Below are positions 127 through 61,638 of a stretch of 64,000 nt of DNA, piece after piece. Every line of letters begins with the position of its first letter. Position 1 is the first letter of the stretch. The notes beneath the pieces were generated by a model. It ran no database searches and was not told the DNA's origin. It was given only the letters and a program-made list of their open reading frames with translations. Source of the DNA: Morinoia aosen (taxonomy: Eukaryota > Arthropoda > Malacostraca > Amphipoda > Talitridae); the NCBI GenBank assembly GCA_030386875.1, contig CM059564.1, forward strand, positions 46,892,075 to 46,956,074, written 5' to 3'. The translations under genes were made by a program, and so were the position numbers.

Positions 127-2802
127 GTCAACGAATCCAAACTGTAGGTGTCATCCTTTAGCTTCATTCTCAAATGGATAAGCTCACCATACAACCCAAG
201 CGTGAACTGCCCCGGTTGTATGCTCTACATCTGAAGATCAGATTTGTTCACGAGGTATTTCAAAACCTCCCGCACCCCGACACAGGTTCACAATAAAACC
301 AATGAATGAAAGAACTAAATCAAAACCAACTTATTAAAAGCAAATTTCTTGAACATAACGAATTTATCATCCTTTATGAGCTTAAATATAAAAATTACCG
401 CTAGAAATAATTTTATTCAGACAACCTGTAGTAATTCGACTTAAGTAAGAAAAAAAAGAACTGCTGAAAATGCCTTTACCTGCAGAAACGTTAACCCGTG
501 CCTCTGCGTTCAGATAAGAGTAAAAATATGGTATTTATTTGCTTTCGAACTTGATTCCATAACTAATGGAACTCTAAGTTCGTGGCTCGAACTTACCATA
601 AAAGAAGCAGAGCGTAACGACTTGCTTTCAGCCTCAATTCACGAGCACGCGAGAGGAAAGAGCGTCATGGCGCGCGACCTTGCAAAAGTTGAGACCGGAA
701 ACCCGAGTTTAATTTTAGGTCTGGCGACTTGTAAACAAGTTTGGAGCTCGTGTCGAAGAGCTTTATTGGAAATTCGAGCCAATAACAGCGTTATTTGCTG
801 CTTATTTTCTCGAACAAGCAGCGGTAACGAGCAATGAATGAGTCTTGGGTCTAAAATAATGACCTATGAGTGAGGCGCTGGTCTTGAATAACGGTCAGTG
901 AAGCGTGAGTCTCGGCACAGAGTGGCTGTAGTGCATGTAATGGTGAGGACGGACTCGAAAATTACAGATTTGGCTGAAACAAACTAACGCGGCAGAAACA
1001 ACGTAAGGAATTCAAAGTCAATAAAAACCATGCGCAGCAGCAAATAAGTTATTTTTGTAGCATGTGATCAATTTAACAGGGATGTCACTACACTGTCCAT
1101 ACTTTGTTTACATTGTTCGAGTTAAAGAGGAGTGTGGGTACTTCTGTCGACATTTAATAGATGCGAAGTTCAGGGTTATGGGATACACATAAAACTAACT
1201 AAAATAATAAAATAAATCATTAACAGCTTTATTTCCTACCGAAATCAAGCTTCGAACAAGAAAGTAATTGATAACAAAATTTACTTCAAAGAATACCGAT
1301 AGAAATATGCCACTGTTACATCATATCTCAATGTAAATTTAGAGTTTATCTACTCACTGAACGAAGCAAAGATCCAGCGAGACGTGTTATAAGCAAAGAA
1401 ACAAAGTTTTCAGACCACCTTCACAATACACCCAGCACTGTGCCTGGAGCAGAACGGCCGCATCATCTCAGCAATCAAATAGAAACGCAACGCCGAACTA
1501 ATTATTGTGATCTGATTGCCTGGAAAATAATTGGTGTCCCCAATCCACCAATCGCAAAAGACACCAATAACAAGGGATACATAAACAAGAGAGAGACAAT
1601 CTGCAGGAAGCAGGCGTCTTGCAGACGCTGCAGGCGTTTACTGAACTCATTTTGGGGGATACTTTAGCGCGCTACAGACACGAGAGCTCACTTGTAGTTC
1701 ATTCCGTCATCAACGGGTGTTAATCGAGGAGAAATTGACTGCAAGGAGGGCAATGTAAGGCGATTCCAGCAGCACTTCGCTTTGTTTCGTTCGCTAGGCG
1801 TGTGGGTGCAGAGCGTGGTCGTGCAATGGATCAGTTGGTGCTCTGGTATCTCTGGGACTGAGTGCAATAAAGTGCTGGATATTTGAATTTTCCTAACTAA
1901 GGCGCAAAGTTGAAATTCATGCGCGGTGAAAATTTTTGTAATAAATTATTTAAAAATAGTTATGAATTGCGTAGTTCATAACTATTTATGTGGTTCATAA
2001 AAAGAATAACAGCCTTCCTGAAAACAAATTTACTTATAATAAAAAAGGTGGAGATATTTTGAGCTGAAAAGCTAAATAGTTTTTTCAGTCAGTTTCAACC
2101 GATTAGCTGATCGGTGTGAATGTTCGAAAAATTCTGTCATTCCACTACTGGTTTGAATTTTTAAACGCAACAGTTTGCTTATGAAACTGAAAGCCTTTTT
2201 TTTTAAACGAGTGAGTTAGACAGCTCTTATTCAGCAGCGACCTCGATTAAACATATTGACCCATCTCTGAACCTACACAGCGTCACACTGCACTCATCAC
2301 TGCCTCTCCCAACGAACTGTAAGCCATCACTGACATGCAATATCACAGTTTGTTAGAGCATCAGCAGGCTTCGCTTTAGAGAACATTACCAAGCAATAAC
2401 AATTCTGGACCCTTGGAAGGAACATTTCATTACTTTCTTAGAAGAGCTAAATTCTGACAAGTGTGAGAGCAAAATTAAAATTTGGCATCCGGAAGCTTTT
2501 CACGGACAACAAGCCGTTCCTTCATACCGTAGCTGAAGGAACACATTCTACGGTCAGTTAATGCCACTTTTCAGGAGACAATTCCTCCATTGTCACAGCT
2601 TCGCAAGGGCGAGAGCAGCCAAATAAACAAGGGACTCAGCAGTCAATTACTGGCAAGAAGGAAGGTCTGTTCCAACGTGGATCGATGGTGTACCATCACC
2701 GAGACGCGCTCGCTTGCGAGTTGCTTAAAAGAGGGCATGACTTGCGCGTTGTACAGAGAACAACCAACCACCTGAAGATGTTAAGGCTTTTTATTTAAAC
2801 AT
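127..2802. other. Unannotated A+T-rich DNA, no gene seen
   Basis: About 2.7 kb with no convincing coding frame, RNA gene or mobile-element end. Open frames near 0.62-0.84, 1.44-1.67 and 2.59-2.78 kb are 61-75 codons, within chance expectation, and match no family I recognise. A short direct repeat of CAGGCGT/CAGACGC type lies near 1,610-1,640. Confidence 0.6.
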
Positions 2803-3145
2803 GGTGTAATTTCCGGTCAATCATCTCCAACCATGAAAAAATGATTCCAAGAGAGGAAAGAGGGAGACATCTGAAGGTAGTTTCTGTATGCATATAAGGT
2901 GTAATTTCGAGTCAGTGGTTCCCAACCATGAAAAAAATCATTCCAAGAGAGGAAAGAGGAAGGCACCATTTAGTAGCGAATTATCGGAACGGGGAATCTT
3001 CGACTATTGTGAGTTCCCTCGCTTTACGCATGATCTATAATAAAACAATTATTTTTATTTCAACAAAAGGAATGCCTACTTAACCGCCACCTTGGGACCT
3101 CACATCTTACCATAAGATAGCTCATTCCTAGAGAGTCTTAAAAGA
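2803..3145 (-). mobile_element. SINE-X copy A, diverged, internal duplication
   Basis: This is an old copy of the retroelement seen intact at 26.6, 49.2 and 50.7 kb. Shared blocks on the plus strand are CCAAGAGAGGAAAGAGGAAG, GGCACCATTTAGTA, CGGGGAATCT and, after an A/T-rich stretch, AAAGGAATGCCTACTTAACC. The portion containing CCAACCATGAAAAAA and CCAAGAGAGGAAAGAG occurs twice (about 2,803-2,870 and 2,899-2,962), so a segment of about 97 bp was duplicated after or during insertion. The hairpin end is badly eroded (near 3,105-3,145). No target-site duplication was found. Confidence 0.6.
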
Positions 3146-3677
3146 TAAATTTTTATTTCAGTGCTTCCCATGAAGTTGGTGCGCGAAAATGCAATGGTGG
3201 TAAAAATTCACTTATAAACGTTTTGGGAATTCTGCTTTTAAATTATCGCAACGCTGAATGAAGGCAGAAACTTTATTTAATATAGACATTGATGTCAGCA
3301 TTCAAATCACATTTAAATCTGTTTAGAATCTTGATCGAAATTATTATGCACTGACAGCTACTAAAGTCAGACAAAACAGAATACCATAATAAAAGTAAAT
3401 GTATCAAATGCATTTATTAAGTTTTACAAACAGCAAAAATTGAAGCAAAAACTTTCACGTTAAGTAGTTCTGTTGCAGTATAAAATATATCTGCCGGCGG
3501 TAGACATAGCTAAGTATTGTAAAATTACAACATTTCCAATACAGCCAAAGAATTTTAGAGAGCATTTGCTTCCTAACAAAAGCTGACGCGAATTTGAAAC
3601 TTACAAACCGTGCTACCAGCCACACCAACTTGGGATGAGCAGTAAAAAATGTCAGCTAAATGACCTGGTGTAAGTCC
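3146..3677. other. Unannotated A+T-rich DNA
   Basis: No feature recognised between the diverged SINE-X copy and the MITE-1 copy that follows. Confidence 0.5.
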
Positions 3678-8180: not shown

Positions 8181-8424
8181 AAAATAGGAGTCGACTCAGC
8201 ACTGTAATTATGAGTACTACAAATATAAGTTTATACTAAAAATAAAAACTAGGGTTAAATTGACGATGCAAAGTAAAGGAAAATGGTTGATGGCAAATTT
8301 TTGAGTGCTGAGATTTTTATCGCGTTTGATGAAGCTGATCTAGAAAATAAATGCAAATTTCAATAAACATATTCCAAAAAAAAATTTTTTTATCTGTCAA
8401 AAAGTGTGATTCTTTCAGATTACA

Positions 8425-8730
8425 TAAATTAGTTTGTCTCCCCAACCACAACGAAGAGTTATCAAGAAAGAAAGACACAGGGCAACATTTACTGCAGAAT
8501 GGAATTAGGAAAACGGGGAATCTACACACAAGGTGTGTCTCAATATCTTGCGCATAAAAACTAGATAGATGGAATTTATGTAACAGGACAAAATTTGAAG
8601 AGGAAAGGGATGGGCGATTAATTAAAGGATAGTAGTAAACAAAAGTTGATGATCCATGACAAAACGCAACCAAAAAATATTCTATTTTAACAAAAAGAAA
8701 GCCCACCTAACCTTCAGCTCTGGACCTTAC
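8425..8730 (-). mobile_element. SINE-X copy B, diverged and head-truncated
   Basis: On the plus strand this begins with AGTTTGTCTCCCCAACCACA, includes AACGGGGAATCTACACACAA, and runs through ATTCTATTTTAACAAAAAG to CCCACCTAACCTTCAGCTC, all collinear with the intact copies. The hairpin head is missing. A minus-strand frame stays open for 129 codons across it, but the T-rich strand of other copies is also low in stops, so I do not treat this as coding. Confidence 0.7.
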
Positions 8731-9810
8731 GGGTGGTTAATTTTTACATTTTGGAATCACAAAAAAGTAGCAAACCTTGACGAGTTTGTGGGACGCCATT
8801 GCAGAATTAACCCACAAGTTTGCGGTAGGTTGACAGGGTGAAAGTCTGGAGCCAACTAAAGTTACGACTTAAGTTCTGGCAAGTCCCTCTCGTGAAGACG
8901 ACTTAGGCTGGCTATATTTTCCTTGGTGAAGTTAAGGAAATGAAGATTTGCCGAGCTTTGAGTAAATAAAGAAGACTTTTGAGAACAGATTGCCTCGGGG
9001 ATGTCCACAGGAAATAATATTTTCTGTCAGCTCCCCGCTTATTGACTTATTGACTTCCATTAACTGAAGAAGTGTCTCACTTTTAGCAGGCTCGTGTCCA
9101 TTTATTTCGGAAATTTTCAGAGACCGCACGCAGCGTGTAATTGAATTCAACAATATTTCTATTCTACAATTGCGGAGAAATTCTGTAGTACTTGGATTAG
9201 TTTACGCTATCGTCTTCCGTTTACGCAAAGTTTCAATATTCTTTTGGAACATTTTCATTTGCAACATCAATACTCAAATATTGATTGGAAACATTTCTAC
9301 GGAAATTTATTGTTAGTGGATTAGTGGTGGAAGTGTTCTTTGTCCAAACTATTAAATTGAAACGAATTAAATTTTTTAGTACTCTACATTTTCATACCAT
9401 TATACCAGACCCCTCATTGAAATTGAAAATGATAAGATACTCATGGCAAATAAAAATGTTCCAACCAGCTGTTGATGTGCGTCCGCAATTTGCGTCTCAC
9501 TCACCGAACGGTCTTAGCTCCACAAAATCATTCATATTTCAACTATCTTTCCAAGGCCTGGCTAAACGTTTTATAACGAGTTGTTTCATTAGCTCGCGAC
9601 TTGTTCAATATTATGACCTGATCGTGTAGCGGTGAGCAAGGACCGTCATACCGACGGCTCCATGCTGCGTTGTTTTATTTTATAAATCAATTCTGGAGCT
9701 GGAATTTTAGGTTTACACGAACCTCGTCGTTTCGTTTTTGCTCTGATATATAAATTTATGCCTCGATCCGTCCCAAATACAATGAGTTATCGATGGATTC
9801 GTCTGTTAAA
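8731..9810. other. Unannotated DNA, no gene seen
   Basis: A 114-codon plus-strand frame (9,285-9,629) and a 73-codon minus frame (8,932-9,153) are present, but neither has a recognisable domain or composition unlike the surrounding sequence. No repeat recognised. Confidence 0.5.
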
Positions 9811-11699: not shown

Positions 11700-12530
11700 C
11701 GAGGGCACGAGACGAAATGACGAGGGCACAAGACGGGACGACGAGGGCACAAGACGGGACGACGAGGGCACAAGACGGGACGACGAGGGCACAAGACGGG
11801 ACGACGAGGGCACAAGACGGGACGACGAGGGCACAAGACGGGACGACGAGGGCACAAGACGGGACGACGAGGGCACAAGACGGGACGACGAGGGCACAAG
11901 ACGGGACGACGAGGGCACAAGACGGGACGACGAGGGCACAAGACGGGACGACGAGGGCACAAGACGGGACGACGAGGGCACAAGACGGGACGACGAGGGC
12001 ACAAGACGGGACGACGAGGGCACAAGACGGGGCGACGAGGGCACAAGACGGGACGACGAGGGCACAAGACGGGACGACGAGGGCACAAGACGGGACGACG
12101 AGGGCACAAGACGGGACGACGAGGACACAAGACGGGACGACGAGGGCACAAGACGGGACGATGAGGGCACAAGACGGGACGATGAGGGCACAAGACGGGA
12201 CGATGAGGGCACAAGACGGGACGATGAGGGCACAAGACGGGACGAGGGCACATGACGGGACGAAGAGGGCACAAGACGGGACGACGAGGGCACAAGACGG
12301 GACGACGAGGGCACAAGACGGGACGACGAGGGCACAAGACGGGACGACGAGGGCACAAGACGGGACGACGAGGGCACAAGACGGGACGACGAGGGCACAT
12401 GACGGGACGAAGAGGGCACATGACGGGACGAAGAGGGCACAAGACGGGACGATGAGGGCACAAGACGGGACGACGAGGGCACATGACGGGACGAAGAGGG
12501 CACAAGACGGGACGACGAGGGCACAAGGGA
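11700..12530 (+). repeat. Minisatellite, 21-bp unit, about 39 copies
   Basis: The unit is GAGGGCACAAGACGGGACGA plus one C. Most copies are identical. Variants include GATGAGG (a block near 12,160-12,240), CACATGACGG and ACGAAGAGG (toward the right end), and one copy near 12,241 that is 3 bp short. The consensus contains no T on the plus strand. Because 21 is a multiple of three and the unit has no stop codon in most frames, open frames of 280-318 codons appear on both strands. They are by-products: no frame is preferred, and substitutions are not concentrated at third positions of any frame. Confidence 0.97.
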
Positions 12531-16860: not shown

Positions 16861-18019
16861 GAGTTGGGGTTGTGGAGAGAGAGTCGGCGTTGTCGAGAGA
16901 GAGTCGGCGTTGTCGAGAGAGGGTTGAGGTTGTGGAGAGAGGGTTGGGCTTGTGGAGAGAGGGTTGGGCTTGTGGAGAGAGGGTTGAGGTTGTGGAGAGA
17001 GGGTTGAGGTTGTGGAGAGAGGGTTGAGGTTGTGGAGAGAGGGTTGAGGTTGTGGAGAGAGGGTTGAGGTTGTGGAGAGAGGGTTGGGCTTGTGGAGAGA
17101 GGGTTGAGGTTGTGGAGAGAGGGTTGAGGTTGTGGAGAGAGGGTTGAGGTTGTGGAGAGAGGGTTGAGGTTGTGGAGAGAGGGTTGAGGTTGTGGAGAGA
17201 GGGTTGAGGTTGTGGAGAGAGGGTTGAGGTTGTGGAGAGAGGGTTGAGGTTGTGGAGAGAGGGTTGAGGTTGTGGAGAGAGGGTTGGGCTTGTGGAGAGA
17301 GGGTTGAGGTTGTGGAGAGAGGGTTGAGGTTGTCGAGAGAGGGTTGAGGTTGTGGAGAGAGGGTTGGGCTTGTGGAGAGAGGGTTGAGGTTGTGGAGAGA
17401 GGGTTGAGGTTGTCGAGAGAGGGTTGAGGTTGTGGAGAGAGGGTTGGGCTTGTGGAGAGAGGGTTGAGGTTGTGGAGAGAGGGTTGAGGTTGTGGAGAGA
17501 GGGTTGAGGTTGTGGAGAGAGGGTTGAGGTTGTGGAGAGAGGGTTGAGGTTGTGGAGAGAGGGTTGAGGTTGTGGAGAGAGGGTTGAGGTTGTGGAGAGA
17601 GGGTTGAGGTTGTGGAGAGAGGGTTGAGGTTGTGGAGAGAGGGTTGAGGTTGTGGAGAGAGGGTTGAGGTTGTGGAGAGAGGGTTGAGGTTGTGGAGAGA
17701 GGGTTGAGGTTGTGGAGAGAGGGTTGAGGTTGTGGAGAGAGGGTTGAGGTTGTGGAGAGAGGGTTGAGGTTGTGGAGAGAGGGTTGAGGTTGTGGAGAGA
17801 GGGTTGGGGTTGTGGAGAGAGGGTTGGGGTTGTGGAGAGAGGGTTGGGGTTGTGGAGAGAGGGTTGGGGTTGTGGAGAGAGGGTTGGGGTTGTGGAGAGA
17901 GGGTTGGGGTTGTGGAGAGAGGGTTGGGGTTGTGGAGAGAGGGTTGGGGTTGTGGAGAGAGGGTTGGGGTTGTGGAGAGAGGGTTGGGGTTGTGGAGAGA
18001 GGGTTGGGGTTGTGGAGGG
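16861..18019 (+). repeat. Minisatellite, 20-bp unit, about 58 copies
   Basis: The dominant unit is GGGTTGAGGTTGTGGAGAGA. The left edge has GAGTCGGCGTTGTCGAGAGA copies. GGGTTGGGCT variants are scattered on the left half, and TGTCGAGAGA variants occur at 17,321 and 17,401. From 17,801 to the end, eleven consecutive copies carry GGGTTGGGGT with a sharp boundary. The plus strand is almost free of C. Twenty is not a multiple of three, so frames cycle every three copies. Minus-strand frames of 404-433 codons (Pro/Ser/Leu/Asn-rich) are a by-product of a unit without stops. Confidence 0.97.
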
Positions 18020-20849
18020 AGTTGACCAACGTTGACCAAGTATGTAGATGAAATGAGCACTTAATTCAGGTGGACAAAAGACTTGCTCAGTTCAGCTGAC
18101 AACTTGCAGGGTACTTCACAATGCTATACCAAATAGTCATCTTGGATAGGAACAAAAGATCTGCTTACACAAAGAAGACAGGAGAACGTTTCCATGATCA
18201 AGTTGGAGAAATAAGCTAAATATAAAGACCACAGCTGAGTGAATGCACTATGGGAACGTTTGAGTCATACACTTTCATGTCAAATCAATTTAGCAATTGA
18301 TCCTGAGACAAGCTGAGGGCCATGAATGAAAGACAAATTGAATGGTTCAGTGAATTATCGTAACAGGATTTATTTAAGCTCAAAAGCGGACTGATCTTGA
18401 AACATCACAGACGACGTGAGCCGCCTGAGCCGAGCATTGCATTGGAATTATTGAAGACCGATGGAACATTGCTGCCGGTCTGGATCCCAATCTCGCCTCT
18501 TCTTAAGCTGGCAAGTCTCCAACCATAAACGCGTTCATGCCTACCAGGTAGACCTAAAGCATACATTTTCTCAGTTCGAGCCGTCAACAATGCGGAATAT
18601 TAAGCACCGCTTAAATAACAGACGCGTGTGACAAAATAGACGATATTGCCACATCGATAGGAGTCGTAGGATTGTAAAAAAGCGCATTAACAGCGCACTC
18701 AATCACACGAGAAGCTATCGTTGGATGATGGATGAGACCGGCACATCACGGACCGACTTGACACATTGGCACATCGTAGATCACTCGACAATGACGGTGC
18801 AGACCGACACATCGCTGCCCTGAGCGCCTCACAATCACATCACGATGGCACCCTCAGGGAGGGAACGTCGGATCCACGTAGCTCATCAATAACTTCAAAT
18901 CAGGGCAATCCCGAGGGAACCGCCAAAAACCGACGCACACTCAAAAAAAATGTATACGAATCGGACTCTGCCAATTACAGTGTTGACCTTTTTGGAATAA
19001 ATGTTGCTGTGAAGATGTTCAAAAAGGATGTGGAAATGACATGCGCTTCAAAAAATACACGAATCGGACTCGGCTAGTTACAGTGCCGATTCTTTTTTTG
19101 GCACAAATGTTTGGGACAAGGGGATATGAAAAAGTCACTGAAGAAGTGGACACTTATTCATCGAAGGATTAACTTTACTGACCGTCTCGCGTAAGAAAGG
19201 CTATGACAACTAAAGCGTAAATTGTTCATGCACATTATCAGGCGATGGGGTCCCCACGTATGAGTATTACAATCATTTAAAAAATAAATTCATCGTATAA
19301 ATAGCATTCAATTCTTTGATGTAGCGTCTGGCTAACGTTCAAGTCACACAGTCCGGAGTTTGTGGTGCATGCCAAAGTACGTACGTACCTGATGAGATGG
19401 AAAGTTGGAAAAATCACTATTTCATGCAAGAAAGTTCGAACGATCTGAAAACACAACCTTTCGAAAAACATCTTTTTCGATACTAGCGCACAAGACGAAG
19501 TTTATTTTAACAAGCATTTGACAAATGAAACAACGTTGATAGAATGCGCACAGACAACTCGACCGTGAAATGAACAAATAGCAGCGGAGCGTTCGGTCAC
19601 GTCTCCGATGGCAGCCAGACGAATCGAAGGAAAGATGCTTGGCTCGTAAATTCTTCGTACGAGCCTACCGCCGCCTTCTATTGTTGCGTATACAGGATGG
19701 AGCAACTGGCGGATGATAGACGGGTGGTAATGAAATAAAAAAGGAAGAAGGTGATGGATTACGGCTGGGTAAATAGATTATGAGTGACTGATCGAGGACT
19801 CGTGTTCGATTGTATCGCGAGCGGCTTCATGGCAGGGAAACGCATTTGCTTGATTTTGGGGAGAGCGGAGGCTGGTTCCTGCGCTGGAGTCTGACAGATG
19901 CTTGGGGTGTCGAATTACCGCGCATAAAGAAGACAGAGCGCTTGAATCTTGCGCAACACGGCAATGAAGCCAGAATTACTGAAGAAAGAGAAGAAAGAGC
20001 AACAAAACTTCGTTCAAGCATCAGTGGGGAAATTGCTTACGCATACATTTCTCCTTCTCATTGTTTAAATTATATTTCAAAAACGGTTAACCTAAAAAAA
20101 TTAGACCAGGAAAAACAGCATGTGGCTTAGTGAAGTAGACAGCAGAGCTTTCGCAGCCGGCTTCACCGCCACAAAACTCGAAAGCTTTTGAAGAGTAAAA
20201 TATTTCACACTTGCCGAAAGGTAACCTCGCAACGCTCTGTTGCAACATTGAGCAAAAACAACCAAACGTTTGTGATACAAAATTCACGGACATGAAAAAT
20301 AAAGCTACAACAAATACAAAAAAGAAACGTGAGCTTTTAACCAGAATGAACGAAGAGTATAAACTTCCAATAAATTTAAGAATAATTTCTTCAAGCTCGG
20401 CATTAGTTTGAATTCAAGAAAATGAAACATGAAAGCTTGAAAAATTTCGTTTCAACACCCGTTATAGTTAACAAATTTCCACACCGTATGGACTCCCTTG
20501 AAGAACAGAATAGGTCCAAAAGTCAGTTATGAGCTCGAGGCGACACATTTTGTGGTATCAATTTTTTCATAAGGTTTACATGTAGACTCCTCTCGAGGAA
20601 AGAATCGGTAGGAAATTCGGGTTTAAGCTCGAGGGAAATTATCTGAGAAAAATACCAGGTAACGTAACAAGTCCCGAGAGGAACGAGGCACCGGCCATGT
20701 CTAATTAGCTTCTACAAGATGCTTACAGCGCTGCTTTGCACGAGCAAAATTTTAGAGAGAAATTCAGCTGCAACTTTCAGCTCTGGAAAAAGCTCGGATT
20801 TTACCAACATAATTTGGTAAAATTACAGAAAAAACGGATGCTAAAATTA
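18020..20849. other. Mostly unannotated; 103-bp direct repeat at 18.95-19.11 kb
   Basis: A pair of segments near 18,951 and 19,054 share ACGAATCGGACTC, then a CYAGTTACAGTG-like block and a T-rich CTTTTTGG stretch, with period 103 bp. A 103-codon frame (18,766-19,077, no ATG at its first codon) and a 106-codon frame (19,810-20,130) lie here, but neither shows a known domain. A small perfect hairpin GGCTCGTA/TACGAGCC lies near 19,639-19,663. Confidence 0.5.
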
Positions 20850-21241
20850 GTTAAGTTAGTTCAAGCCTCCCTAGCCACAACAAATGTGCTCGGACGGCGG
20901 CAGGCACAATTTCGAACGGAAAATCAATGCACACTGAGTGTTCCATCGCAAGATCCCGTGCGTATAGAAACATCATATCAAAAGTATGTGAAACCAAACG
21001 AAAGTTGAAGAAAGAAGTAGCTACCGTAAGTAGCTACCGTACAGTTGAAGAAAGAAGTAGCTACCGTAAAGCTACAGTAGCTTTCTTATCTTGTCGATAA
21101 GAAAGATTTTTCGTGACAAAACAGAAAACCTATTCTATTTTAATAGAAGTAAGGTATAGCTAGCACTAAGCTTTGGGCCTCACATCTTCCTCCTGGGAGC
21201 GCTGATTCCCATAGAGACAATAGTTGTCTCCTCCTGAGGAG
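20850..21241 (-). mobile_element. SINE-X copy C, diverged in the middle
   Basis: The left (element 3') end reads AGTTCAAGCCTCCCTAGCCA. The right (element head) reads CTATTTTAATAGAAGTAAGG, then TCCTGGGAGCGCTGATTCCC, then AGACAATAGTTGTCT and CTCCTGAGGAG at the terminus. The middle (about 20,890-21,110) is not alignable by eye and includes local GTAGCTACCGTA repeats. Both terminal stems differ from the other copies by paired changes that keep the pairing. Confidence 0.7.
21081..21105. other. Perfect 10-bp hairpin
   Basis: CTTTCTTATC, a five-base loop TTGTC, then GATAAGAAAG. It lies inside the diverged middle of SINE-X copy C, next to repeated GTAGCTACCGTA motifs. No function can be assigned. 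Confidence 0.85.
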
Positions 21242-26275: not shown

Positions 26276-26579
26276 TTAGGGTCGGATATAACACCGCAAA
26301 TTCCACGACAAACACAAAAACTAAGTTCGTCAGAGGGCAGATGAAAGAAAGGCAATCTCGATGTGGCGCTGAGGAGAGGCCTCTACGAGCTCTGAGCAGC
26401 CCTCACGAGGGCCATATGCCCTCGATAACGGTCGTTTTGATCATTTTTGCTCGTGCTCATGACGATGGGCTCACAAAATGCGCGTATTATTCGCATCTAC
26501 ATCCTAGAACTCATTTCGGAGTGTGGAATGCGGAAGTTTGTTTCTTGCTGTAATGGCACTATTGATACTTCAGGTCTCA

Positions 26580-26943
26580 TTTATTATTATTATTATATAA
26601 GAAAGTTTTAGCCTCCCTTAACCACGACAAAGATGTTCCAAGAGAGGAAAGAGGAAGGCACCATTTAGTATGGAGTTGAGGGAACGCGGAATCTATGCAC
26701 AAGGTGCACAGAAACAGTAAGCTAGGAAAGAAGTTCATGAAACAAGAAAAAAGTTGAAGAAGAAAGTAGTAGGTGCTGAAAAACAGGACAGCAGTGAACC
26801 GGAAAAAAGATGGTCCGTAACAAAACAAAAACTTATTTTATTATAACAAAAAGGAAGCCTACCTAGCCTTTAGCTCAGGCCCTCACATGGTTCCCCTGGG
26901 AGCGCTAATTCCCATAGATACAATAGTTGTATCCCCTGAGGGG
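26580..26943 (-). mobile_element. SINE-X copy D, full length, with target-site duplication
   Basis: The 364-bp element is bounded by an exact 11-bp duplication, TTCAGGTCTCA, at 26,569-26,579 and 26,944-26,954, the hallmark of target-primed retrotransposition. Sense is the minus strand: the head ends exactly at 26,943, and the tail is a TAA-type microsatellite (plus-strand TTATTATTATTA at the left). From the head inward there are three stems: CCCC/GGGG at 26,933-26,943, ATACAA/TTGTAT at 26,918-26,932, and GGGA/TCCC around 26,898-26,913. I see no reverse transcriptase frame and no convincing Pol III A and B boxes (only a weak GGTTCACTGC). It could be a SINE of unusual origin or a non-autonomous LINE derivative. 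Copies sharing the same head argue against random 5' truncation. Confidence 0.85.
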
Positions 26944-26954
26944 TTCAGGTCTCA

Positions 26955-27429: not shown

Positions 27430-27960
27430 TCTAATGCACTGCGGGGGGAGAGGAGGGGGGAAGGGGAGGAAGTGGGCACCGGGGGTGGGACAGTGGGGCC
27501 CCGGGGATGGGGAAGTGGAGCCCCGGGGATGGGGAAGTGGGGCCCCGGGGATGGGGAAGTGGGGCCCCGGGGATGGGGAAGTGGGGCCCCGGGGATGGGG
27601 AAGTGGGGCCCCGGGGATGGGGAAGTGGGGCCTCGGGGATGGGGAAGTGGGCCCTCGGGGATGGGGAAGTGGGGCCTCGGGGATGGAAAAGTGGGGCCTC
27701 GGGGATGGAAAAGTGGGGCCTCGGGGATGGAAAAGTGGGGCCTCGGGGATGGAAAAGTGGGGCCTCGGGGATGGAAAAGTGGGGCCTCGGGGATGGAAAA
27801 GTGGGGCCTCGGGGATGGAAAAGTGGGGCCTCGGGGATGGAAAAGTGGGGCCTCGGGGATGGAAAAGTGGGGCACCGGGGATGGAAAAGTGGGGCACTGG
27901 GGATGGAAAAGTGGGGCACCGGGGATGGGGAAGTGGATGGGGAATGGGGATGGGGAAGTC
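27430..27960 (+). repeat. G-rich minisatellite, 22-bp unit, about 21 copies
   Basis: The homogeneous part spans about 27,487-27,950. Left copies are CCCCGGGGATGGGGAAGTGG plus two G. Middle copies have CCTCGGGGATGGAAAAG; right copies have CACYGGGGATGGAAAAG. The variant classes are in blocks, so the array grew by local duplication. The GGGG runs every few bases on one strand are a strong G-quadruplex pattern. Three frames per strand are open for 160-249 codons. A 202-codon Gly/Trp-rich plus frame includes an ATG in a favourable context (GAGATGGCGG near 27,409), but nothing else supports translation. Confidence 0.95.
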
Positions 27961-30455
27961 ACGGGCCTAATCTCCATGACTTCGACTAGTGTAATAGTTT
28001 TAAATTTACTTTCCATTTCATGAACGCACGTAGGTCTATGGTATTTACTCGAAAAAAAATCAGCCTTATCACAATTTCCCCAACTTTTACCTTCAGTTTG
28101 CACATTTTTTCCCCGCAACCCATTTTGTGCTGACAAAGTTTCTTGATAATTTTAGAGCTTTACGTTAAAATATTCCCGGGGCACCAGTTTTGGCGCCCGG
28201 AGACGCAACATCGCGTCGAATATTCAGCTCCTGAAAAGTTCTTCAGAACCTCGCCTCAAACTCCAGCCTCGTCGATCATTTTTGGAGTCGTCAAAACCTG
28301 CAATCAGAGTGTGTAAAAAGTTGGAAACCATGGCGCAAAATTTCCCTCATCGTCCATACCGTTCCAGTATTGGGTCTGGAAGGGAGCAAGAATTTCTTGT
28401 GGAGAACCGAAAAATAGGCCCCAATTATTGAGATTATGGTAAACCGCAAGGAGAATTCTTACTCAACTCAGCAAACTTGAGTGTTCAATAATTTATTGCT
28501 AGAAATCGTTGCGTTTATTCAGTCATTTTGTAAAATACGACAAAATCTAATGCAAAGATTTCAGAAAGCTAAATAAAAGTTTAGCGTTATGAATACGATG
28601 AGCAATGTTAAAAACCTCAATTATAAGGGAAGGAGAAATTACAGTTGGGTGAAAAATTCAAGCGCTTGCGAGATAAGGATGGGTCGAAATCCAGAAAAGT
28701 TAAGCAGTCGGAACTCGGCACGCTTCTGAGACATTATCCTGTGGAACCATATGCATCTCTTTGCTTTAAGACAGTTCCTAAATTCGGAGTCTCATACTCA
28801 TGTTGGAAGCCTTTAATTTTCATAGGAAAAAGATCTGTCCGATGTTCCAAGTGCCGTCTTTGGTATCAAGCCATATTTTTGATACAGGATATCCTAAAGG
28901 CTGCTTATTTTCGAAACATGAATATTAATCTTTGATCACTCGATCATTCCATTTTGAAATCACCCTCGTAAGTCACGTGTGGGCGAAAGTATTGATGCAA
29001 AAACTCCATTTCCACTGAAGCTAATATTTAACCCCAATCGGACCCAGATTTCTGTGCCATGGAGTACTATTACCGGACTCGTTTTCAAAGAACGCTCAAG
29101 ACCCAGAAACAGCCAGCATCGGCTGTGATCGAACTGTAATAAATGAAATACTACACCCCTTCTTCATTGTCTACCCATGGTCGTAAGAGCGGACCGGAAT
29201 GAAGATAAGCCCGGCATGGAACGCAAGCAAGGCACGCTCCGAAGTTCAGATAGCCCGTCCATCTAGCCAGCGAATACGAGCCGGAAGCGACACGCCTGCA
29301 TCGAGGCAGCGAGAAACAAACTTAGCAGTCACGTCTACGAAGGAACTTGGTCACACTCCAGGCTTCCGACGCAAGAGAACTTTGTCTCGGAACTCATGTT
29401 AAAATAAGATTGTCACTGATAGTTATTTTGCAAACGATTCAACCGGAAATAGCGAGGGCGAGTTAGCTTAAAAGAGTATAGGCGTAATTCATAAAGAATC
29501 TACCGTATTTCGATGAAAATGTCAATCCTAAGCCCGGGAAAGGCGGGACGACTTCATGCCTCCACATTATTGGTCATCTAGATAGACGATTAGTCATTTT
29601 TGTCTTACAAAGCTTGACAAAAATTATCATTACTAAATAGGATAGTGAACGCATTCCTTGAACCATTCGACAAAGCTGCTTTATCCGTTTTCAATATCGG
29701 CTACCTAAAGTTGCGACAAATACCGAGTGAAAACATCAAGTTTCAATAATCTAGAACTTTGTAATGAATGTTTAAATTCGGCCGAAAATCTACGTAGTGT
29801 ATTCGCAAAAAAATTAGCGTAAATTTGCAGAATGTCATTAAGAGTACAATATGCAGAGACTCAGAAAGTGAAATTTATAGAGCAAGATTCACTGAATCAG
29901 TGATATTATGATATAATTATAGGGGATTCAGTAACATATGATATTATAGGGGATTTAGAAAACGGAAGTCGAGAAGATAGGGGTTGCATGAAACTACCAG
30001 AGAGAAACTGAAAAGTGGCAGGGTTACGAAGGAAGGAAAATGACAGTGGATCCAGAGTGTGATTTGTGAGGGAAGAGTGAGGAAAGGAGGTGGGGCTGCT
30101 CATGCGCGCGAGCGACTTCTGACTTGCATATTAAGGGGAAAGGCGCCAGTCGGGCGTATGTGGGAGAAAGTAGCGTGCGGTGTGCGATATCGAAATGGCA
30201 ACCAGAATGTTGAACAAGCGAAACTGTGAATGAATGAACGAGTGAATTAATGAATGAATGCGTAGCTTCAAATATTGAATAGAGAATTGAATGCGGTCAA
30301 AGACCTTCAATAGCGACGGACTCGGCTTCAATCATAGGTCGTGTAGCCAGTGTGCAAAGGCATTTCAACCCAACAGCAAGGACGGAAAACCGTCCAGAAG
30401 CTCACTGAATTTCCGAAACCAGCATCTACGGATTAGATCAGGTTTTACAGTATTG
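27961..30455. other. Unannotated DNA, no gene seen
   Basis: About 2.5 kb. A 96-codon plus frame at 28,645-28,935 and a 67-codon frame at 29,199-29,402 match nothing I recognise. A short two-copy repeat (GATATTATAGGGGATT type, period about 32 bp) occurs at 29,900-29,960. Confidence 0.5.
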
Positions 30456-30560
30456 AAGTTTAAGCCTCCCTAGCCAAACGTGGAAGGCGCTATTTATTAC
30501 GGAGTCATGGGATCGGGGAGTCCGTGCATAATGCGTGTTTCCACACCCTGCGCAAGCAAA
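30456..30560 (-). mobile_element. SINE-X copy E, 3' fragment
   Basis: The plus strand reads AGTTTAAGCCTCCCTAGCCA, then GGAAGGCGCTATTTATTACG and GGGATCGGGGAGTCCGTGCA, collinear with the tail-proximal third of the intact copies. The head is absent. Mismatches are numerous, so this is an old fragment. Confidence 0.65.
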
Positions 30561-30659
30561 GAGCAACATGGAAAAGCTGATAAAAATGCAGTTAATGTGT
30601 TGTTGTCGATCATGCTAAAAATAATCGTGACCTACCAGTTATGATTTTTTATATGCTGT

Positions 30660-42066: not shown

Positions 42067-42210
42067 TAAGCCCACCATAATATATCATACGAAAAACTTG
42101 GCCGCAACACACAAACTACGGGGTGCTAACAACAGAGGATCACTCCAAAACGGAACAACCGCAAAACAGAACTGAGACACTAGACGTACGATTTTCTTAA
42201 GACGCTTTAA

Positions 42211-43340
42211 CCCTCCAGTCCACATCGGCAGACACCACATAGAGGCTTCAAAGTCCGACCCTCCAGTCCACATCGACAGACACCACATAGAGGCTTCAAA
42301 GTCCGACCCTCCAGTCCACAACGGCAGACACCACATAGAGGCTTCAAAGTCCGACCCTCCAGTCCACATCGGCAGACACCACATAGAGGCTTCAAAGTCC
42401 GACCCTCCAGTCCACAACGGCAGACACCACATAAAGGCTTCAAAGTCCGACCCTCCAGTCCACATCGGCAGACACCACATAGAGGCTTCAAAGTCCGACC
42501 CTCCAGTCCACAACGGCAGACACCACATAGAGGCTTCAAAGTCCGACCCTCCAGTCCACAACGGCAGACACCACATAGAGGCTTCAAAGTCCGACTCTCC
42601 AGTCCACAACGGCAGACACCACATAGAGGCTTCAAAGTCCGACCCTCCAGTCCACAACGGCAGACACCACATAGAGGCTTCAAAGTCCGACTCTCCAGTC
42701 CACAACGGCAGACACCACATAGAGGCTTCAAAGTCCGACTCTCCAGTCCACAACGGCAGACACCACATAGAGGCTTCAAAGTCCGACCCTCCAGTCCACA
42801 ACGGCAGACACCACATAAAGGCTTCAAAGTCCGACCCTCCAGTCCACATCGGCAGACACCACATAGAGGCTTCAAAGTCCGACCCTCCAGTCCACAACGG
42901 CAGGCACCACATAGAGGCTTCAAAGTCCGACCCTCCAGTCCACATCGACAGACACCACATAGAGGCTTCAAAGTCCGACCCTCCAGTCCACAACGGCAGG
43001 CACCACATAGAGGCTTCAAAGTCCGACCCTCCAGTCCACAACGGCAGACACCACATAGAGGCTTCAAAGTCCGACTCTCCAGTCCACATCGACAGACACC
43101 ACATAGAGGCTTCAAAGTCCGACCCTCCAGTCCACATCGACAGACACCACATAGAGGCTTCAAAGTCCGACCCTCCAGTCCACAACGGCAGACACCACAT
43201 AAAGGCTTCAAAGTCCGACCCTCCAGTCCACATCGACAGACACCACATAGAGGCTTCAAAGTCCGACCCTCCAGTCCACAACGGCAGGCACCACATAGAG
43301 GCTTCAAAGTCCGACCCTCCAGTCCACATCGACAGACACC
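42211..43340 (-). repeat. Minisatellite, 48-bp unit, about 23.5 copies
   Basis: The plus-strand unit is CCCTCCAGTCCACAWCGRCA, GACACCACATAGAGGCTTCA and AAGTCCGA. Copies vary at about five positions (AACGG, TCGGC or TCGAC; CAGA or CAGG; ATAGA or ATAAA; ACCCT or ACTCT). Two minus-strand frames are open through the array. One gives a 466-codon frame (42,207-43,607) with an ATG and about 87 non-repetitive residues upstream, then a 16-residue Cys-rich repeat RCGLEGRTLKPLCGVC. In that frame three of the five variant sites are silent; in the other frame (WTGGSDFEASMWCLPL) about one is. This is a mild hint, not proof, of coding. I annotate it as a repeat. Confidence 0.95.
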
Positions 43341-43554
43341 AGACAAACCAAAACATCGCTTCCGCCTTGCAATAGCCAACACCGGACGTAAAAACGAGCC
43401 TTCCTTTATTTTCAGTATTACAGTCGCGGCTTCCGCAATATTCTCATTGCGTATGCAGGCTACGGACGAGCGCGGGCAGCTGTAACCGTACGGTCCGCAT
43501 CCGCAAACGGCGGACACGTGAATATTCAGTGCCATGTCCGCCGGCGGCCAGCTG

Positions 43555-49205: not shown

Positions 49206-49564
49206 GTTTATTAAGTTTATTAGTTAGTTTGAGCCTCCCTATCCTCAACAATGAGATGTAAAGAGAGGAAGGAAGAAGGCACCATTTAGTATGGAGTTAA
49301 GGGAACGTGGAATCTATGCAGAAAGGGCACAGAAACAGAAAACTAAGAAAGAAGTTCATGAAACAAGAAAAAGTTGAAGAAGAAAGTGGTAGGCGGTGAA
49401 AAACAGGACAGCAGTGAACCGAAAAAAAGATGGTCCGTAACACAACAAAACCTATTCTATTTTAACAAAAGAAAGCCTACCTAACCTTTAGCTCGGGCCC
49501 TCACATTGTCCCCCTGGGAGCGCTAATTCCCATAGATACAATAGTTGTATCCCCTGAGGGGCAT
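49206..49564 (-). mobile_element. SINE-X copy F, full length, with target-site duplication
   Basis: A 13-bp duplication, GATGAGAAATGAA, flanks the element at 49,193-49,205 and 49,565-49,577. The tail side reads GTTTATTAAGTTTATTAG. The head keeps ATACAATAGTTGTAT and CCCCTGAGGGG, ending at 49,561; three extra bases (CAT) separate it from the duplication, as untemplated additions can. The interior is near-identical to copies D and H, so all three are young. Confidence 0.85.
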
Positions 49565-49835: not shown

Positions 49836-50193
49836 CCTATTCAAATTAGGGCAAGAGCTCCATCAAACTCGAATATATGGTTGTATGGGCGCCCAAGAGC
49901 GACTTCCCAAACACCTTCACGAATTACGACTCACGTGCCCAACAAACAAGCATCACCAAACCACAAGCGTACACAAAAAACAGCGATAAGCTCCGTCTAG
50001 TCCCAATAAACTGCGTAGATTTATGAGAAATGAAATCGAACTCCGTCACGATACAGCTCACGCTGGCAACACCCACAACATGCTGATGCGTGTAAAACTG
50101 AGTCTTGTTTGTGTGTGCGTGCGTATGTTGGCAGGGTTCTATGATGTAGGCTACTTATGTTACTACGAGAGCGGGTGTAGTGTTGCTTAGATA

Positions 50194-50549
50194 AGTTAGT
50201 TTGGGTCTCTCTAACCACAACAAAGTAGTTACCCTCAGCATGTGGAAAGCATCGTTGAGTGAGCAATTTGCTGATCGGGGAATCAACGAACATTGCGAGA
50301 CATCACGCATTGCGCACAGAAACAGCAAGATCGAAAGAGGTTTAAGATTAAGATGGATGATGAATAAGAAAGTTGCAATTGCTGAAAAGAACGGACATCA
50401 ATGAATCGAAAAAGATGGTCTGTAACAAAACAAAATACATGTTCTATTTCAAAAAATGAACTTTGACCTAACCTTCAGCTCAAGATCTCACATTCCTCCC
50501 AGGGGGCGCTAATTTTCATAGAGACAATAATCGTGTCCTCCTGAGGGGT
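50194..50549 (-). mobile_element. SINE-X copy G, older, full length
   Basis: The plus strand runs from AGTTTGGGTCTCTCTAACCA through GATCGGGGAATCAACGAACA, AAAAAGATGGTCTGTAACAA and TGACCTAACCTTCAGCTCAA to the hairpin head, AGACAATAATCGTGTCCTCC and TGAGGGG. Many substitutions separate it from D, F and H. No target-site duplication is visible. It lies 0.6 kb from copy F and 0.2 kb from copy H. Confidence 0.78.
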
Positions 50550-50737: not shown

Positions 50738-51098
50738 TATATTATTATTATATAAGAAAGTTTTAGCCTCCCTTAACCACGACAAAGGTGTTCCAAGAGA
50801 GGAAAAAGGAAGGCACCATTTAGTATGGAGTTGAGGGAACGCGGAATCTATGCACAAGGTGCACAGAAACAGTAAGCTAGGAAAGAAGTTCATGAAACAA
50901 GAAAAAAGTTGAAGAAGAAAGTAGTAGGTGCTGAAAAACAGGACAGCAGTGAATCGAAAAAAGATGGTCCGTAACAAAACAAAAACCTATTTTATTACAA
51001 CAAAAAGGAAGCCTACCTAACCTTTAGCTCGGGCCCACACATGGTTCCCCTGGGAGCGCTAATTCCCATAGATACAATAGTTGTATCCCCCTGATGGG
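50738..51098 (-). mobile_element. SINE-X copy H, full length, with target-site duplication
   Basis: An exact 14-bp duplication, ATATCTCTAAGCAT, flanks it at 50,724-50,737 and 51,099-51,112. The tail is TATATTATTATTATATAAG on the plus strand. The head reads ATACAATAGTTGTAT then CCCCCTGATGGG; the last stem has a mismatch here. Nearly identical to copy D across the interior. Confidence 0.86.
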
Positions 51099-58156: not shown

Positions 58157-58622
58157 GGTACCGCCAGTGTCGACAGGTACCGCCAGTGTCGACAGGTACC
58201 GCCAGTGTTGACGGGTACCGCCAGTGTTGACGGGTACCGCCAGTGTTGACGGGTACCGCCAGTGTTGACGGGTACCGCCAGTGTTGACGGGTACCGCCAG
58301 TGTTGACGGGTACCGCCAGTGTTGACGGGTATCGCCAGTGTTGACGGGTATCGCCAGTGTTGACGGGTACCGCCAGTGTTGACGGGTACCGCCAGTGTTG
58401 ACGGGTACCGCCAGTGTTGACGGGTACCGCCAGTGTTGACGGGTACCGCCAGTGTCGACGGGTACCGCCAGTGTCGACGGGTACCGCCAGTGTCGACAGG
58501 TACCGCCAGTGTCGACAGGTACCGCCAGTGTCGACAGGTACCGCCAGTGTCGACAGGTACCGCCAGTGTCGACAGGCACTGTCAGCGTTAACAGATACTA
58601 TCAATGTTGACAGAAACTGTCA
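58157..58622 (+). repeat. Minisatellite, 19-bp unit, about 22 copies plus decayed edge
   Basis: The unit is GGTACCGCCAGTGTTGACG. The first two copies and the last five or so carry TCGACA in place of TTGACG; three intermediate copies near 58,452-58,497 carry TCGACG; two copies near 58,328-58,350 have GGTATC. After 58,575 three more units decay (CACTGTCAGCGTTAACAGAT and so on). Nineteen is not a multiple of three, so frames of 165-169 codons on the minus strand rotate through all registers and are not coding. Confidence 0.96.
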
Positions 58623-59997: not shown

Positions 59998-60710
59998 AAG
60001 AGTTTTCTTTCAGAAACACGAGTTGCGTCCATGCTACTCACATACGAACGGAGGCAGCTACCTGCAGCCGGCAAAAATGTGTCATCGATTCATTCATACC
60101 TGAAAAGAAATAAAATTGTGTTATTTTAACTCATTCACGTTCATATCTTGACTGGTTAAAGATAATGCTGAATAAATACAACGGATACGTAAATTCAAAA
60201 TATGGGAAACAATTTAATAATTATTTTAAATGAAAAAATATATATAATATATAGAAGTACACAATAATATAATATACAAAATGAAAAATATATGAATAGA
60301 AATTTTATGTTACGTATTAACGTTTTATGAAATTAGCAATTGTAGAGCAGATATTGACTAATAACGACTGATATTGGATTCAAAATAACCTGAAGTCATT
60401 CGAAGATAAAAACTCTAGGAGCAAACTATCACTCCAGAAATGTTTAAAATCGTGAGCATAGGCCGCTGATTCAAAAATATTTTGTCCCGTTTTTCAGCAT
60501 TCCGTCTATTTTAAATTTTTGATGAAAGAGCTGTTTCGAAATATCATCTTCATAACCCCATCATCTTCGCACTCATCATCTCGGCTGAGCAGAAGAAGCT
60601 GAACAGCATCTCTCCAGGTGCTCGGGCGCCCGACCGAGCCATTCTAGGCAATTTATGAACCGGGAATGAGTCAGCAATTTCGCTCATAAATACACGCAAA
60701 TGAGCAGCTG
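59998..60710. other. Unannotated, very A+T-rich in the middle
   Basis: The 60,180-60,310 segment is dominated by AATATATA-type sequence. No gene recognised. Confidence 0.5.
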
Positions 60711-61638
60711 AATGAAAATACACCGCCGCTGAATGAAAATACACCGCCGCTGAATGAAAATACACCGCCGCTGAATGAAAATACACCGCCGCTGAATGAA
60801 AATACACCGCCGCTGAATGAAAATACACCGCCGCTGAATGAAAATACACCGCCGCTGAATGAAAATACACCGCCGCTGAATGAAAATACACCGCCGCTGA
60901 ATGAAAATACACCGCCGCTGAATGAAAATACACCGCCGCTGAATGAAAATACACCGCCGCTGAATGAAAATATACCGCCGCTAAATAAAAATACACCGCC
61001 GCTGAATGAAAATACGCCGCCGCTGAATGAAAATACACCGCCGCTGAATGAAAATACACCACCGCTGAATGAAAATACACCACCGCTGAATGAAAATACA
61101 CCGCCGCTGAATGAAAATACACCGCCGCTGAATGAAAATATACCGCCGCTGAATGAAAATACACCGCCGCTGAATAAAAATACACTGCCGCTGAATGAAA
61201 ATACACTGCCGCTGAATGAAAATACACCGACGCTGAATGAAATACAGAACCGCTGAATGAAAATACACCGCCGCTGAATGAAAATACACCGCCGCTGAAT
61301 GAAAATACACCGCCGCTGAATGAAAATACATCGCCGCTGAATGAAAATATACCGCCGCTGAATGAAAATACACCGCCGCTGAATGAAAATAGACCGCCGC
61401 TGAATGAAAATACACCGCCGCTGAATGAAAATACACCGCCGCTGAATGAAAAAACACCGCCGCTGAATGAAAATATACCGCCGCTGAATGAAAATACACC
61501 GCCGTTGAATGAAAATACACCGCCGCTGAATGAAAAACACCGCCGCTGAATGAAAATATACCGCCGCTGAATGAAAAAACACCGCCGCTGAATGAAAATA
61601 TACCGCCGCTGAATGAAAATACACCGCCGCTGAATGTA
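60711..61638 (+). repeat. Minisatellite, 21-bp unit, about 44 copies
   Basis: The unit is GCTGAATGAAAATACACCGC plus C. The left third is nearly uniform; variants (TATACC, CACTGCC, CACCACC, AAAACACC, AGACC) increase to the right. Single-base deletions near 61,242 and 61,535 and an altered copy (AATACAGAACCGCTGAATG) shift the register. Three minus-strand frames of 224-373 codons are open but exchange registers at these deletions, which argues against any of them being maintained as a protein. Confidence 0.97.

Follow-up and report, generated by a model that had tools for sequence, protein, structure and literature searches.

The question raised by this locus is whether the head of a short repeated element, SINE-X, encodes an RNA terminus held under structural selection, as a preliminary description of the DNA proposed from two paired base changes between a few copies, or whether those changes met by coincidence. 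The window, that is the whole 64-kb stretch of DNA analysed (C9:46892075-46956074), comes from a 1.99-Gb eukaryotic genome assembled in 29 contigs and contains SINE-X copies D, F, H, G, C, B and A together with one fragment, all on the minus strand:

26580..26943, minus strand: copy D, full length, with the 5' head at 26943 and a (TAA)n tail at the low end (nhmmer match 26943-26587)
26569-26579 and 26944-26954, minus strand: target-site duplication of copy D, TGAGACCTGAA, in both flanks
26880..26943, minus strand: head of copy D, CCCCTCAGGGGATACAACTATTGTATC..., one G short of the young consensus
49206..49561, minus strand: copy F, full length (nhmmer); target-site duplication TTCATTTCTCATC, then ATG, then the head
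50740..51098, minus strand: copy H, full length (nhmmer), 97% to D; head CCCATCAGGGGGATACAAC, target-site duplication ATGCTTAGAGATAT
50186..50548, minus strand: copy G, old, full length (nhmmer); stem 2 with a C:C mismatch, stem 3 broken
20846..21241, minus strand: copy C, old, full length (nhmmer); CTCC/GGAG and GAGACAA/TTGTCTC
8415..8734, minus strand: copy B, without head (nhmmer), beginning at model position 54
2794..3149, minus strand: copy A, decayed, 3' half partly duplicated (nhmmer pieces 3149-3001, 3006-2921 and 2938-2794)
30454..30576, minus strand: 3'-half fragment of SINE-X (nhmmer E 2.4e-10)

Copies D, F and H, each of which has readable target-site duplications, are mutually 87-97% alike, and copies C and G, where alignable, resemble D at 75-77%; copy D is identical to genome locus L001. 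The letters on which the structural proposal was built are largely as described. Stem 2 reads GATACAA/TTGTATC in D (head end 26943), F (49561) and H (51098), and GAGACAA/TTGTCTC in C (21241). The first stem was correctly given as CCCC/GGGG in D and F and CTCC/GGAG in C, but copy H reads CCCATCAGGGGG and so does not have CCCC/GGGG, contrary to that account. In copy G, stem 2 has one G:T pair and also the C:C mismatch, and the third stem, GGGA/TCCC, is broken (GAAA/CCCC). The body of copy C contains expanded AAGTAGCTACCGT units at window 21015-21070, and the remaining 39 scored matches of this body in the genome are all partial. A local duplication occupies window 2794-3006 in the 3' half of copy A, where TTCCTCTCTTGGAAT... 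is present twice. Elsewhere in the window, minisatellites are found at 11700-12527, 16863-18021, 27480-27936, 42210-43341, 58157-58573 and 60707-61636, with units of 19-48 nt in 21-58 copies; the long open frames that they produce are not genes, and ten window ORFs compared with Pfam gave three weak matches, all under the cut-off.

The description of SINE-X as a short retroelement with its head at the 5' end is borne out by target-site duplications, the tail and the pattern of truncation. Duplications of at least 9 nt flank 41 of the 78 full copies (1.4 expected), and 31 of the 78 have duplications of at least 12 nt (0.6 expected). The 5' end is sharp (CCCCTCAGGGGG...): 26 of 30 young loci, copy D included and all 96.7-100% to D, start exactly at CCCCTCAGGGGGATAC, and their upstream flanks differ, with the exception of one flank shared by L003 and L009. 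At the end opposite to the head stands a variable simple-repeat tail, (TAA)n or (TCTAA)n, young copies ending in TATATAATAATAAT(TAA)n and loci L010 and L004 in (TCTAA)n. The young consensus, 359-363 nt long, is non-coding, with no ORF of note. The ends of the consensus, which differ, and the lengths of the duplications, which vary, are not those of a MITE or DNA transposon.

Eight truncated copies scoring above 210 bits are without a head, and the best tail-less copy reaches 169 bits (one copy cut by the locus end being excluded). Target-site duplications of at least 9 nt accompany only 3 of the 32 head-truncated copies (1.2 expected). Among these, L010, which is without nt 1-25 and keeps its (TCTAA)n tail, is the sole copy with a clean 14-nt duplication; L014 has a duplication of 9 nt only, and that of L048 has no weight as a target-site duplication because the copy sits within a tandem array:

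upstream of 2102 and downstream of 2437 in L048, minus strand, oriented: (TTGTATTGGGCCCCA)n tandem array

A 12-nt repeat is found at one of the 11 tail-less copies (L092), where it is in fact a head-head junction. Given the duplications, the variable tail at the other end and the better preservation of truncated copies that are without the head, the head is most likely the true 5' end of the element. A reversed polarity, with the 'head' as a LINE-derived 3' end, would turn the antisense LINE match described below into an instance of the tail sharing that is usual between SINEs and LINEs; it is nevertheless very unlikely in view of the variable simple repeat at the opposite end, the headless truncated copies above 210 bits, and L010 with its retained tail and clean duplication.

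SINE-X is abundant, making up 8.4% of 40 kb of genome sampled at fixed places (14 pieces, 3357 bases, in 6 of 20 stretches). First-look searches of the genome returned 3075 candidates with copy D as the query and 2203 with the head of copy C, of which 40 were scored for each. The copies fall into three age groups, young (33 copies), middle (20) and old (23), which diverge from their own consensus by 1.4%, 12% and 26%, respectively. Word-based literature searches listed no paper recognisable as a description of SINE-X, and the exact head pattern had no match in a collection of viral contigs and none in one of genome contigs.

The proposal of structural selection held that the RNA 5' end of the source copies retains its pairing as the sequence drifts. 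For the five heads of the window, this is not distinguishable from chance: the two co-changing pairs observed were reached in 488 of 2000 column shuffles, and the observed consensus energy (RNAalifold, -14.5 kcal/mol, stems 2 and 3 formed) in 238 of 2000. Folded singly, the five heads are not clearly better than shuffles (z from -0.87 to +0.33). A three-way junction fold is possible for copies D and F, and it counts, with the RNAalifold energy, among the points in favour of a selected fold. The 5' CYCC has alternative partners, either AGGRG after stem 3 or UGAGGG further on, and the first stem as originally drawn is therefore one option among several.

Three larger samples bear on the same proposal: 59 distinct heads, with D-like target copies and C-head matches left out; 37 distinct old heads, drawn from 74 rows; and a MAFFT alignment of 44 heads of references not picked by their heads, which represents 44 of 52 references after the omission, before the test, of eight decayed ones (copy A included). 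Heads in the samples of 37 and 59 were obtained via the body of copy C, through chance presence in flanks, or from fixed places. In the 44-head alignment, the structure given in the preliminary description has a covariation score of 0.124 versus 0.137 in shuffles, with 467 of 500 shuffles at or above the observed value, and three pairs changed on both sides versus 5.9 in shuffles; an alternative structure scores 0.132 versus 0.138. RNAalifold, proposed at the outset as a check, yields only -0.99 kcal/mol for these genome heads, that is, no consensus fold.

In the sample of 59, paired double changes number 3 in stem 2 (3.2 expected), 3 in stem 3 (3.3 expected) and 1 in CCUCA/UGAGG (1.8 in shuffles). 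Stem 1 has 7 paired doubles versus 4.1 in shuffles, as well as 8 unpaired doubles versus 3.8, and its count of paired cells exceeds that of shuffles (19 of 2000, or 1 of 2000 with the register shifted by one). Since unpaired doubles are also in excess and the old-only sample of 37 heads has none (106 paired cells versus 105.6), we interpret the excess of paired cells in stem 1 as an effect of mixed copy age. A further small excess concerns CCCCU/AGGGG (nt 1-5 with nt 48-52), one of seven pairings tested, with 9 paired doubles versus 4.4 in the 59 heads (49/2000) and 9 versus 4.1 in the 37 old heads (20/2000); in the 44-head alignment, a structure with four pairs of CCCCU/AGGGG shows no excess.

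Stems 2 and 3 thus show no excess of covariation in the samples of 37, 59 and 44 heads, nor do the stems in 30 C-like heads, and the alignment of genomic copies by which the structural claim was to be judged is, on these samples, without significant covariation. The perfect hairpin GATACAA/TTGTATC is found in each of the three age-group consensus sequences, which, together with the two small excesses (stem 1 cells and nt 1-5 with 48-52), speaks for the fold. Dead copies cannot reveal selection on the source, so that a fold could have been maintained with its sequence unchanged. Weighed against the lack of covariation, the lack of a consensus fold, the single folds that do not exceed shuffles and the non-significant five-copy test, structural selection on the RNA 5' end is in our judgement unlikely.

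The origin of the two co-changes is clarified by the heads that most resemble that of copy C, compared here as the top 30 (C included) of the 40 scored matches to it. In these 30 heads, G14 stands opposite A26, with which it does not pair, in 14 cases, opposite G26 in three and opposite C26 in two; T2 and A10 occur together in four, T2 alone in six and A10 alone in six; T2 and A51 occur together in two, T2 alone in eight and A51 alone in seven. Single changes are thus frequent, and each half of the changes in copy C is common on its own. The stem positions at which C differs from D also change singly elsewhere in the samples, so the co-changes need no pairing to account for them. The double changes of copy C appear to be widespread single polymorphisms brought together in a single old copy. 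A compensated C-type subfamily should have headed the C-head search; the 30 best of its 40 scored matches do not include one, and the only carriers of G14:C26 among them are C itself and L079. These two share six states (G14, C26, T2, C38, A51 and G56), a point in favour of structural selection; L079 may be a relative of copy C, so that G14 and C26 may occur together in one small lineage.

Template switching is favoured by inverted repeats and could in principle make double changes in a near-palindromic stem in a single step. The locus L092 (minus strand, oriented 1034-1082 and after) has a 50-nt head unit directly followed by a SINE-X head, and in L030 (2617-2940) a 107-nt part of the head is directly followed by a second copy. 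Both junctions are suggestive of template jumping at the 5' end and count in favour of the single-step origin. Single changes are commoner than doubles, however, which makes a special mechanism unnecessary, and we consider this origin of the stem changes extremely improbable.

The head is also a candidate for a promoter. The absence of A and B boxes noted in the preliminary description is supported, in that the young consensus has no pair of the consensus box motifs at the usual spacing, and the same holds for tRNA, 5S and 7SL text, with no Rfam tRNA, 5S or SRP match in the window or on copy D. In fact, no Rfam family reaches gathering score in the whole window, and copy D, searched at E up to 5, gives only sub-threshold matches to CRISPR-DR64, NEAT1_2 and ZEB2_AS1_2. 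There are no tRNA genes in the window, and neither the window at gathering score nor copy D at an E cut-off of 5 gives a match to a ribozyme family (hammerhead, HDV-like, twister). T5 or T6 runs are found in the young consensus at 92, 113, 136, 160 and 191, and all 33 young copies have a run of T5 or longer within 150 nt. Runs of this length should stop pol III, and some T runs can be read through by it.

The size, target-site duplications, simple-repeat tail and abundance of SINE-X would also suit an ordinary pol III SINE with a tRNA-like head too decayed to be recognised, and a B-like GTTCACTGC with one mismatch is present at nt 145. This explanation is nonetheless quite unlikely, the young copies, at 1.4% from their consensus, being without boxes at the usual spacing, all 33 containing T5 or longer, and no tRNA, 5S or SRP match being found. 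Because the upstream flanks differ, pol III boxes are not found and T5-T6 runs are present, we infer that the RNA of SINE-X would derive from a Pol II promoter inside the element; a position inside the element is also made likely by the copies' beginning exactly at +1 after unrelated upstream DNA.

In a comparison of the age groups that omitted seven middle and two old copies obtained via the C head, nt 1-51 of the consensus are identical in the young, middle and old groups and 30/298 and 35/297 of the later positions changed between groups, figures that depend on a cut at 50 nt chosen after the data were seen. When the 64-nt head is compared with the body, the changes (4/63 versus 31/283, p 0.20; 2/63 versus 28/284, p 0.06) do not differ significantly, and a single alignment shift accounts for 8-9 of the body changes, those at 315-324. 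Unchanged runs in the body (nt 102-173, 72 nt, and nt 128-194) are longer than that of the head. Decay in the head of dead copies is 20.4% versus 22.3% elsewhere for the old group and 7.0% versus 12.7% for the middle group; in young copies, the corresponding values are 2.0% and 1.3%. Taken as weak evidence, these data hint at constraint on the head of the source copies.

A relationship of the head with LINEs is also observed. Among 52,382 candidates in an RVT_1 search, 150 were scored, the longest of the LINE-like open frames having 1248 codons, and the ends of 20 LINEs were compared first; the Pfam matches above the cut-off among nine locus ORFs were to a LINE endonuclease and to a Tc-type transposase. 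Nucleotides 27-48 of the head are antisense, at 21 of 22 positions, to TGGGGGCGCTAATTCCCATAGA, which follows the ORF2 stop in the 3'UTR of one LINE family. This match occurs in 3 of the 20 LINE ends (blastn E 1e-4); shuffled heads compared with nine of the 20 reach a maximum of 17, none of 1000 attaining 21, and a Smith-Waterman test on seven LINE ends likewise gives 0 of 1000 shuffles. Of 12 further LINE ends, six have the exact 16-nt core, four a near copy and two something else. The match of the head to the LINE is more than chance.

In the related LINE families L117, L120, L125, L130 and L132, the GGGCGC and CGCC arms are present at this place with different loops. More generally, L115-L121, L125, L130, L132 and L134 have (AAGTAAC)n-type tails and a short 3'UTR in which GGGCGC/CGCC arms surround different loops; L123, L126-L129, L131 and L143 form a separate LINE group with (AACTAAGTAA)n tails.

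The match may have arisen by descent through inversion, by capture by the LINE, or through functional pairing. In one reading, the head originated as a LINE 3'UTR fragment in inverted orientation, as twin priming could produce, or else it is retained because its antisense relation to the LINE 3' end brings it into contact with the LINE ribonucleoprotein or its regulation. The near-perfect 22-nt match, its absence from shuffles and the recurrence of the core in half of the further ends argue for it, but the other LINE families compared are without the match and the tail of SINE-X has no similarity to seven representative LINE ends, so that the antisense-matching LINE may not be the partner. Nor is the predicted SINE-LINE duplex energy specific: it is matched by 7 of 200 shuffles for the antisense LINE and by 1 of 200 for L133, a LINE without the match, and it therefore adds no proof. 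On balance, we regard an inverted or antisense LINE piece as possible, at a rather low probability. There is only a slim chance that, with transcription by Pol II instead of pol III, the element would use pairing of its 5' end with the LINE 3' end, or mimicry of that LINE end by its own cDNA, to reach the LINE reverse transcriptase or start the second strand.

The explanation that we consider probable is that SINE-X is a non-autonomous retroelement copied by LINEs, with coincidental co-changes in its head and a putative internal Pol II promoter. According to this explanation, an abundant, non-coding element of ~360 nt would be copied by LINE-type machinery; RNA polymerase II would transcribe it from a promoter within the element, for which the first 51 nt of the head are the candidate; and a LINE reverse transcriptase would prime at the simple-repeat tail. 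In that case, no RNA fold would be selected, and the short inverted repeats would serve as palindromic binding sites or be incidental; CCCCTCAGGGG presumably resembles an AP-2-type palindrome.

Compared with known systems, SINE-X shares with SINEs its size, non-coding nature, target-site duplications, simple-repeat tail, age groups and abundance, and differs from them in that no pol III head is recognisable, T5-T6 runs are internal and no partner LINE tail was found among the seven LINE ends compared. Short non-autonomous LINE derivatives of the SIDE or RIME type are another point of comparison: such an origin would account for the lack of pol III boxes in the head. In the same sense, the head gives nothing beyond 10 nt in the 20 LINE 3' ends compared here, and the derivation from a longer LINE that would also have told against the structural proposal was thus not found in these ends. 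The I and jockey elements of Drosophila are LINEs with internal Pol II promoters, and the SINE-X copies resemble them in starting exactly at +1 after unrelated upstream DNA; unlike them, SINE-X is ~360 nt long and has no ORF of note, and any initiator or downstream element of its promoter is putative.

In kind, then, SINE-X is ordinary, an abundant SINE-like retroelement. Its head illustrates how two co-changes in a few old repeat copies can mimic RNA covariation and fade as more copies are added. The interest of the family lies in its making up several per cent of the sampled DNA with no recognisable pol III promoter, and in the antisense relation of its 5' end to a LINE 3'UTR, through which RNA contact between SINE and LINE could be tested directly.
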